Assembly (NCBI RefSeq): GCF_000023845.1
Contig: NC_013170.1
Location: forward strand, 682,001 to 746,000
Length of the DNA: 64,000 bases
From: Cryptobacterium curtum DSM 15641
GTDB taxonomy: Bacteria > Actinomycetota > Coriobacteriia > Coriobacteriales > Eggerthellaceae
Reading direction: 5' to 3'
In this document: piece after piece, positions 55,474 through 58,118 of the stretch
How the letters are laid out: the number at the start of each line of letters is the position of its first letter
Numbering within the stretch: the stretch's first letter is position 1
Position numbers and translations under genes: made by a program
The notes under the pieces: generated by a model
What the model was told of the DNA's origin: nothing
The model's input: only the letters and a program-made list of their open reading frames with translations
The model's database searches: none

Positions 55474-56865
55474 TTAACGAGTACTGCGGTAGTCAGCAGG
55501 ATTTTTGCTCGAAGATCCGGTGAGATTGCGCGTGGTACGCAGTTCACTGCCATATTGAAGCGCCGTTTCACCAAATCGGTTTCGCACCGAATCGGTTGCA
55601 GCCTTGAGACCAGCACGTACATCTTCGCGCTTCATGCGCGCCCGCTGTGCTGCTTGCGTATTCGGTTCAGTGGTAGAGCTGTCATCCGGTTTTGCTTCAT
55701 CAGCGACATCAAAAAGTGTTTCTTGCAGAGGAGCACCCACCTCTTCAATATGGGTGAGGGCACAGCCAACGAGCCGCACCGAATCTCCTGGTCGCCATAC
55801 GCGATCAAGCAGATCAAAGAGAATTGGCGTAATTACATACTCATCGTCGCAGGGAATATCCAAGTGACATTGAGCGCTATGAATCGAGAAGTCACCTCGT
55901 CGCAGCTTCAGTGACAGGGTGCTGCCCACCAGGCCATTCATTCTCATACGTCGTCCAACTTTTGCGGCAACCGTGGAAAGCGCTGCCTCAATGTCTTCAC
56001 GGCTCGTAAGATCTACCGCAAAACTCATTTCATTGCTGACCGACTTGGCACCAGCAGGATGCATTACGGGGGAATCGTCGCATCCGCGGCATCGATCGCG
56101 CATTAGAGAAGCGTTCTTCCCAAAAACGTGATTGAGTATGACATCGTCAGCCTGGGCAACCTGCCCCAAGGTTGTGATACCAAATTTACGGAGGGCTTGC
56201 TGCGCGGCAGGGCCAATGCCACTCATCGCTTTGGTGGGAAGGCCTGCAAGAAATGTTTCTTCATATCCAGGGGGCACGATGGTCAGGCCACGTGGCTTAT
56301 GCGCTTCACTGGCAGTTTTGGCGACTGCTTTGCTACGCCCCAGTCCAATCGAACAGGTAATGCCTAATTCACATACCCGCTGCTGTATGCGTTGCGCAAT
56401 GGCAGCAGGATGTTCCGTTTGCGCGCGTGAGGGGGTGATATCGAGAAAGGCTTCATCAATACTGACCTGTTCAAGCGCTGGACTTTCATCTTCCATAATG
56501 GACATGACCTGGCGCGATATCTCGCGATAGCGCGAAAACCGTCCAGGAGTCCAGAAAGCGTTGGGACAGAGGCGCTTGGCCGTTGAAGAAGGCATAGCCG
56601 AGTGCACTCCATAGGTACGTGCCTCATATGAAGCAGTCGACACAACGCCGCGCGCTTCGGGGTTGCCGCCAACAATAACGGGCTTTCCGCGCCAGGCGGG
56701 ATGGTCGAGTTGCTCGACCGACGCAAAGAACGCATCAAGGTCCAAGAGCATAATGGCGCGTCCCACCCATTCATCTGGCAGATTGAATTGCGCAGAATCT
56801 GTGGGTGGTTGTGCTTTGGTGTCGTGACGAACCAACATATGGTGGTTAGAAGGCTTCTTGCTCAT
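55474..56865 (-). CDS. dinB: DNA polymerase IV (Y-family)
   Basis: This 463-residue translesion polymerase has LLDLDAFFASVEQLD (first catalytic acid), YEARTYGVHSAMP, and the SIDEAFLDITPS motif with the second acidic pair. A little-finger domain follows. QETLF at about residue 385-390 is a beta-clamp binding motif. The C-terminal 70 residues are an added low-complexity tail. The start is uncertain: ATG 56865 and ATG 56838 both lack a ribosome site. A TAAACT about 6 bases before ATG 56865 could place the transcription start at the ATG (leaderless). Confidence 0.92.
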   Translation of the reverse strand: MSKKPSNHHMLVRHDTKAQPPTDSAQFNLPDEWVGRAIMLLDLDAFFASVEQLDHPAWRGKPVIVGGNPEARGVVSTASYEARTYGVHSAMPSSTAKRLCPNAFWTPGRFSRYREISRQVMSIMEDESPALEQVSIDEAFLDITPSRAQTEHPAAIAQRIQQRVCELGITCSIGLGRSKAVAKTASEAHKPRGLTIVPPGYEETFLAGLPTKAMSGIGPAAQQALRKFGITTLGQVAQADDVILNHVFGKNASLMRDRCRGCDDSPVMHPAGAKSVSNEMSFAVDLTSREDIEAALSTVAAKVGRRMRMNGLVGSTLSLKLRRGDFSIHSAQCHLDIPCDDEYVITPILFDLLDRVWRPGDSVRLVGCALTHIEEVGAPLQETLFDVADEAKPDDSSTTEPNTQAAQRARMKREDVRAGLKAATDSVRNRFGETALQYGSELRTTRNLTGSSSKNPADYRSTR

Positions 56866-56996
56866 AGACGCAGTTTATCATGGTCCGATACGTGCGAGCG
56901 GATATGCTAGCATGGTTACTCTGCTGCGTTGATACGACCCTCTTAAGTGGGGGTCTTCGTAGCATGTGTATGGTTACGAAGGCCGGGGAGGGTTAC

Positions 56997-58118
56997 ATGG
57001 TCGGCTTACATCGCGATGTTGATTACCGCCAGGTAGTGACCGATCTACCCGATAAACCCGTGGCTCTTCCCTATGAGCTACGTACCGAAATGACCTGGAT
57101 AGATTTCAGCCATCCGGTCAATCCACTGGGCTGCCCGCGTGCTATTGTTCAGGCAATGCATACTGCTTTAGTTGATGGCGAAATTGCTTTTTCACCCGAC
57201 CGAGATGGTCATGCCCTGTGTGATGCTATTGCTGGTCGATTGGGAATGGCAACCGATCGCATTTTAACGGGTACGTCGCCGTTTGAATTGATTCGTGCCG
57301 CTGCTCAGGTATTTATGCCGGGTATGGTTGGCATTATGAGTCCCTGTCCGCCCGAATACGCGCTTGCTATCGAGAATGCGGGTCATCGCTACGTTTGTCT
57401 TTCTAACACGCGATCGTTTGCGACGGTTGATGCCTATACTGCCCGTGATGAAGCTGGTCAGCTTGATGGTGCCGTGCTTGCCAATCCGGCGTATCCCACG
57501 TCGCGCTTGCTTTCATCAGCAACACTCATTCATTATTTAGAAACGTGTAGCTGGGTTATTGTCGACGAAAGCAATATCGAGCTTTCGTTTGGTGGGGAAA
57601 GCGTGCTGCCGCTTGTGGAAGAATATCCCAATTTGGTGGTTATTCGCACACCGTCGGTTACCTATGGCATGCCGGGTGTCCCCATTGCCTATCTTGCGGC
57701 TCATCCGCGTACCGTCAGGCGCATTCGCGCGTTGTATGATGGAGGCAGCATTTCTATGTTTTCCGAAGTGCTTGCTAAGACGCTGGTTGCACAAGGTGCC
57801 TATATTGATGAGACGCATGAGTTTCTGGATAAAGAAATTCCTTGGATGCAGTGTATGCTCAGCTTAGTGCCAGGCATTAGCATTTATCCCGCTGAAGGTA
57901 ACTTTGTACTCTGTGAATTTTCGTTGGCTGATGGCATGCGCCTAGGTGTTTCGTGCGCTGAAGAGTTGATTATTCGGCTTCAACTCGCTGGCTTTTTAGT
58001 ACGACCCCTCAAGGGCACTCCGGGGCTTGCGAGCGACGAATTTTTCTGTGTTTCAGTAAAGTTACGCAATGAAAATCAGCGGCTTATCGACGCCATGCGG
58101 AGCATCTTAAACGGCTGA
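56997..58118 (+). CDS. Class I/II aminotransferase-like protein lacking the PLP lysine
   Basis: This 373-residue protein has the fold pattern of HisC/CobD-type aminotransferases: FSHPVNPLGCPRAIVQAM, ILTGTSPFELIRAA, and VIVDESNIEL. The position of the Schiff-base lysine in the SKAFG loop is V221 here (the text reads RTPSVTYGMPG), and the NPxNPTG motif reads NPAYPTS. It is therefore unlikely to be a normal PLP transaminase and may be a binding protein or have other chemistry. ATG 56997 has GGGGAGGG 5 bases upstream. Neighbours (dinB, degV) give no clue. Confidence 0.8.
   Translation: MVGLHRDVDYRQVVTDLPDKPVALPYELRTEMTWIDFSHPVNPLGCPRAIVQAMHTALVDGEIAFSPDRDGHALCDAIAGRLGMATDRILTGTSPFELIRAAAQVFMPGMVGIMSPCPPEYALAIENAGHRYVCLSNTRSFATVDAYTARDEAGQLDGAVLANPAYPTSRLLSSATLIHYLETCSWVIVDESNIELSFGGESVLPLVEEYPNLVVIRTPSVTYGMPGVPIAYLAAHPRTVRRIRALYDGGSISMFSEVLAKTLVAQGAYIDETHEFLDKEIPWMQCMLSLVPGISIYPAEGNFVLCEFSLADGMRLGVSCAEELIIRLQLAGFLVRPLKGTPGLASDEFFCVSVKLRNENQRLIDAMRSILNG

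Follow-up and report, generated by a model that had tools for sequence, protein, structure and literature searches.

The closest described relatives of the protein reported here are CobD, the L-threonine-O-3-phosphate decarboxylase of Salmonella (PDB 1lc5/1lc7), and HisC, the histidinol-phosphate aminotransferase. Nine residues are conserved among class I-beta aminotransferase homologs, as given in the excerpted text of the crystal-structure paper on mycobacterial HspAT/ArAT (PMC4703992). Proteins of this fold that lack the catalytic lysine have also been described. In the sugar 3-dehydratases ColD, E1, and SpnQ, which are genuine enzymes of the aminotransferase fold, the lysine has become histidine (excerpt of PMC8987622), while human LCB1 (SPTLC1), also without the lysine, functions as a heterodimer with LCB2 (excerpt of PMC3794620).

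Here, we describe pAT, a lysine-less CobD-like protein encoded by Cryptobacterium curtum DSM 15641. The window, that is, the whole stretch of DNA that was analyzed, comprises 64,000 nucleotides (NC_013170.1, positions 682,001 to 746,000). A search of an open-access literature collection gave no description of the pAT family among the matches listed.

Results

pAT is an intact protein with the HisC/CobD fold. Its open reading frame is unbroken, and the ATG at 56997 follows a purine-rich ribosome-binding sequence (GGGGAGGG). The gene is placed as follows:

56997..58118, plus strand: coding sequence of pAT, the CobD-like putative pseudoenzyme (373 amino acids plus stop)

Against the PF00155 profile, pAT scores 44.5 bits, over the curated cut-off of 19.7. 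The best score among the NCBIfam models is that of CobD (TIGR01140), at 152.6 bits, which lies below an equivalog cut-off (290.55) so strict that any match exceeds it in only 4 of 138 family genomes. HisC (TIGR01141) comes second, at 107.5 bits, again below the equivalog cut-off (276.55). The AlphaFold model of pAT has a mean pLDDT of 88.3 and a pTM of 0.85, and only the first ~18 residues fall below 50. The alignment behind the model (A2) comprises 38 sequences, namely the window protein and 37 of the 43 fetched loci, including L087 (see below); six loci were omitted as near-copies or truncated (L054, L064, L068, L071, L077, and L081). The nearest solved structure to the model is CobD 1lc7 (TM 0.81), and comparison of the model with the CobD structure gives Z 38.0 and an rmsd of 2.2 Å over 337 residues, at 25% identity. 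Profile score, model, and structure matches all place pAT within the fold-type-I architecture and PF00155. An earlier note on this DNA had stated that the overall fold motifs remain, and the fold is retained in the model.

The pAT gene is under purifying selection. We found dN/dS values of 0.014-0.152 in 14 of 16 close, hand-chosen pairs; dS was saturated in the other two, both of which include the window protein. An open frame of at least 350 residues is present in 41 of the 43 members, the exceptions being L068, which meets a contig end, and L081, which is short. Low dN/dS together with intact frames argues for a maintained pseudoenzyme rather than a decaying gene. Combined with the fold model and the CobD match, the purifying selection indicates that pAT is a folded, selected product and not a relic. 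The short frame of L081 (L081:5998-6849; Gordonibacter pamelaeae 7-10-1-b) has 284 residues and begins near residue 90 of the others, reflecting an N-terminal truncation, a frameshift, or an assembly error.

Active-site residues are lost throughout the pAT clade. Counts were made over 43 pAT members, comprising the window protein and 42 loci, with L087 left out. The nine conserved residues of the mycobacterial enzyme (mArAT) were located in pAT by motif and spacing rather than by alignment with the mArAT sequence. The sites concerned lie at the following positions:

57483..57503, plus strand: residues 163-169, NPAYPTS replacing (N/S)PNNPTG, with Y166 at the second Asn
57564..57566, plus strand: D190, equivalent of the conserved Asp184 of mArAT, retained in 43 of 43 members
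57657..57659, plus strand: V221, the Schiff-base lysine position (alignment of 43 members)
57681..57683, plus strand: P229, the PLP-phosphate arginine position (alignment of 43 members)
58047..58049, plus strand: C351, the position of the arginine anchoring the substrate phosphate/carboxylate (alignment of 43 members)

No member has lysine at the Lys217 site (V221; 0/43), where ten residue types are found instead (Glu 15, Thr 7, Val 6, Ala 4, His 3, Asn 2, Ile 2, Asp 2, Ser 1, and Met 1). At the Arg225 site (P229), proline stands in 41 members and histidine in two, with arginine in none. The Arg330 site (C351) is occupied by Cys in 36 members, Ser in four, and Leu in two, with one gap, so that arginine is found in none of the 42 that can be read there. 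The Asn157 site (Y166) has Tyr in 36, Phe in six, and Ile in one, and asparagine in none of the 43. Tyr187 is retained in eight members, the window protein having N193, and Gly227 is retained in two and lost in 41. Fifteen canonical paralogs, read in the same columns, have Lys, Arg225, Gly227, Arg330, and Asn in all 15, Tyr in 13, and Gly84 in 14. At the catalytic-lysine motif, the HisC paralogs carry RTFSKAFSLAGVRLGY, where pAT has RTPSVTYGMPGVPIAY.

The assignment of V221 is secure. A phmmer alignment of pAT with Salmonella CobD (E = 2.8e-17) is free of gaps from D190 to P229; the placement of V221 on the catalytic-lysine position is therefore not an alignment choice. The earlier note had stated that V221 replaces the Schiff-base lysine and that the NPxNPTG motif is altered. 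Its numbering proved exact, and the motif reads NPAYPTS in pAT where the HisC paralogs have SPNNPTG. The survey of homologs that it had called for shows lysine in none of 43 orthologs, against 15 of 15 canonical paralogs. As judged from these alignments, the loss is neither chance nor the oddity of one gene; it extends across the clade. The changes at P229, C351, Y166, and N193 (phosphate Arg, substrate Arg, Asn, and active-site Tyr) come in addition to those in the note. Among candidate replacement lysines, no column is more than 50% Lys. The pAT proteins hold 2-18 lysines each, and the five of the window protein (K20, K261, K279, K339, and K355) each occur in at most 12 of the 43 members.

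pAT proteins have conserved residues of their own. Three of the nine mArAT residues are kept in 43 of 43 members: Gly84 (G92), Pro158 (P167), and Asp184 (D190). Asp184 contacts the PLP pyridine nitrogen, and the invariance of its equivalent D190 across the alignment could mean that a pyridine-like ligand is still bound by pAT, a point against the reading favored below. At 56 positions of the window protein, one residue is common to at least 41 of the 43 members. Several conserved pAT residues have no counterpart in the six canonical rows aligned there: S169, R170, Y180, W186, and P229, together with I281-P282-W283, Q285, C286, and C306. R170, W186, and E280-I281-P282-W283 are present in all 43 members. 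Four cysteines also recur (C306 in 43, C286 in 42, C184 in 39, and C351 in 36), and the new motifs PTSRLL, GGES, and EIPWxQC are near-invariant.

The pAT clade is restricted to the family of C. curtum within the collections searched. A full-length pAT ortholog (40-100% identity) is found in 15 of 60 related genomes, representing 15 different genera of one family, C. curtum included; the remaining HisC/CobD-like matches in this search are 22-32% identical to pAT. A contig scan, partly overlapping with the 60-genome search in the genomes covered, yielded 43 loci, 42 of which belong to the pAT clade, with L087 separate. The hosts of the 42 loci are Eggerthellaceae, Eggerthellales, Coriobacteriaceae, or Coriobacteriia bacteria, with genera such as Gordonibacter, Eggerthella, Paraeggerthella, and Senegalimassilia. 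Within C. curtum's family, the gene is present in 63 of 138 genomes. In a class-wide sample, it is present in 32 of 296, all of the same family. In a tree of 41 pAT, 22 CobD, and 10 HisC rows and one ungrouped row (L068, L081, and the HisC rows L021, L025, and L029 being left out), the pAT clade has a support of 100/100, and a long stem sets it apart from both CobD and HisC.

One genome (G022) is without pAT although its congeners G121 and G122 carry it, a recent absence which indicates that pAT is dispensable there. G022 has a heavy-metal ATPase gene upstream of dinB. Beside dinB, it also has a Septu-like pair of ORFs (L113:7331-9320; PADLOC PtuA E = 1.8e-119, PtuB E = 2e-79). A defense function for pAT itself was considered and rejected, as pAT has no PADLOC match at E ≤ 0.01.

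L087 is a lone CobD-like protein from a Faecalibacterium MAG (L087:942-1979), with ~30% identity to pAT. Ser occupies its Lys site and Pro its phosphate-Arg site, whereas position 351 is Arg. With L087 as query, canonical CobDs match better than pAT does, and in the tree it falls outside pAT on a long branch, its position being unsure. Its loss of the lysine may, on these alignments, be independent of that in pAT. Among 19 other CobD-like loci of its family group (L094-L112), the usual TK and Arg are found in 17, L099 and L108 having been missed by the motif pattern.

pAT and dinB form a conserved head-to-head pair. The neighboring features in the window are:

55474..56865, minus strand: dinB, DNA polymerase IV, head-to-head neighbor of pAT
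56866..56996, no strand: dinB-pAT intergenic region, presumed divergent promoter region, with no exact GAACN4GTTC LexA box

In 59 of the 63 pAT genomes, the two genes lie head-to-head, and their matched regions are 119-515 bases apart. No dinB match was obtained in two of the remaining genomes, and in another two dinB is on a different contig. The other identified neighbors of pAT are a DegV-family gene and a glycosyltransferase gene. Between the flanks gt/pta/ackA and degV/ileS, the dinB-pAT block is found either way round: among the 42 loci, degV/ileS lies beside pAT in 17 (the arrangement seen in the window) and beside dinB in 15, six have neither degV nor ileS within the flank, and the fetched DNA of the last four is without dinB. 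On the pAT tree (L068 and L087 left out), at least two changes of orientation are needed. The two genes have thus turned together and stayed head-to-head, and this favors a functional tie by way of their common intergenic region over mere inertia of gene order.

This tie is not an obligate one. In two genomes of one genus (G002 and G124), pAT is present but dinB gives no match at E ≤ 1e-50; at L069 and L071, the usual place of dinB is empty, and pAT lies between ileS and the glycosyltransferase gene. The reverse holds for a third member of the genus (G123; 66% complete), in which dinB is present and pAT is absent. Of 124 genomes with dinB, 63 are without pAT. An obligate DinB partnership is therefore rejected. 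A dinB match is present in 61 of 63 pAT genomes versus 63 of 75 without pAT (Fisher p = 0.021, in a test that ignores relatedness and incomplete genomes). It is improbable that Eggerthellaceae recruited this cofactor-free aminotransferase fold to serve DNA polymerase IV as a partner or regulator in translesion synthesis; if true, such a role would explain how the head-to-head pair survived block inversion.

We also searched the shared region for LexA control. The lexA gene of C. curtum has two exact GAACN4GTTC boxes upstream, from which the box tested was taken. No exact copy is present in any of 39 dinB-pAT intergenic regions (the window and 38 of the 42 loci), and SOS (LexA) control of the region was rejected on this basis. 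The best box is one mismatch off in 10 of the 39 regions, against 3.3 expected from shuffles, and this small excess speaks against a clean LexA negative. Inverted 5-mers are shared by at most three of the 39 regions, against one or two in 20 shuffles, a weak signal.

Discussion

We conclude that pAT very probably has no covalent PLP chemistry. Its ancestor would have been a CobD/HisC-type PLP enzyme, the fold-type-I architecture of which is retained. On the mechanism established for this family, the loss of the lysine, the phosphate arginine, and the substrate arginine should leave pAT unable to form an internal aldimine, to anchor the PLP phosphate, or to hold the acidic group of a substrate in the usual way.

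The role that we favor, and consider probable, is one in binding or regulation, without catalysis, for a protein whose gene shares its promoter region with dinB. Such a protein would work as a homodimer through its remodeled former cofactor cavity, and the new motifs PTSRLL, GGES, and EIPWxQC would serve this binding or regulation. The shared intergenic region would make pAT expression accompany that of dinB. The earlier note had left the choice between a pseudoenzyme and a new PLP-independent activity. The first half of that proposal is upheld by the loss of the lysine and the phosphate arginine in 43 of 43 members, the ten residues found at the lysine site, the purifying selection, and the retained fold. 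The second half was not borne out and is kept here as a rival explanation.

New PLP-independent catalysis could proceed, for example, through the near-invariant cysteines C184, C286, C306, and C351 or through the remodeled cavity. A dead lysine site is compatible with another reaction, and the strong conservation of new residues (the cysteines; R170, W186, and E280-I281-P282-W283) speaks for one. However, neither a metal-site nor a nucleophile motif was recognized in pAT. The model has a strand at 186-190, ending in D190, and C184 precedes it by two residues; in the fold-type-I topology, this should place C184 far from C351. We therefore consider new catalysis unlikely.

In fold-type-I proteins, the active site is located at a dimer interface, which would suit pAT as a non-catalytic subunit of an active PLP enzyme, in the manner of human LCB1 with LCB2. 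Candidate partners might be sought among nine further PF00155 matches in C. curtum, and the CobD profile has five matches there at E ≤ 0.001 (best 7.5e-45). The weaker of these could, however, be general aminotransferases. With pAT as query, only pAT itself matches in C. curtum at E ≤ 0.001, so that no close HisC/CobD paralog was found there, and the identified neighbors (dinB, the DegV-family gene, and the glycosyltransferase gene) are not PLP enzymes. Together, these observations make a subunit role quite unlikely.

It is very unlikely that pAT works as an enzyme with PLP or PMP and a substitute for the lysine, such as the histidine of ColD, E1, and SpnQ. Although D190 is retained in every member, the lysine site itself is not fixed, with ten residue types among 43 members and histidine in only three. 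Moreover, the phosphate arginine has become proline in 41 of 43, and the NPNNPTG asparagine has become Tyr, Phe, or Ile in all 43. A decaying pseudogene or sequencing artifact, as the many missing active-site residues and the 284-residue frame of L081 might suggest, is for practical purposes refuted by the dN/dS values and the intact frames, and the gene's presence in 63 of 138 family genomes also speaks against it.

The non-catalytic reading of pAT matters for genome annotation. The CobD- and HisC-like profile scores make it likely that automatic annotation calls pAT genes aminotransferases or threonine-phosphate decarboxylases. Histidine or cobalamin steps would then be wrongly attributed to Eggerthellaceae.

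Among known systems, pAT has its whole fold in common with CobD, while the Lys, the phosphate Arg, the substrate-anchoring Arg, and the NPNNPTG Asn of CobD are all replaced. The fold and the general order of motifs are likewise those of HisC, from which pAT differs by the same residue losses and by its separate clade. LCB1 of serine palmitoyltransferase is, like pAT, a maintained PLP-fold protein without the lysine (excerpt of PMC3794620), but it has a catalytic paralog as partner, whereas pAT, used as query, has no close HisC/CobD paralog in C. curtum. The sugar 3-dehydratases ColD, E1, and SpnQ share with pAT an aminotransferase fold without the catalytic lysine; theirs is a site with a catalytic histidine and PMP binding (excerpt of PMC8987622). 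In pAT, by contrast, ten residue types occupy the lysine site, histidine being found in 3 of 43 members and valine in the window protein, and the phosphate arginine is lost. With its drifting lysine site and conserved neighbor, pAT offers a clean case for the uses of a dead PLP fold. PLP-fold pseudoenzymes are already known, and the pAT clade would add a further variant, for which the pseudoenzyme reading is well supported at the level of sequence.
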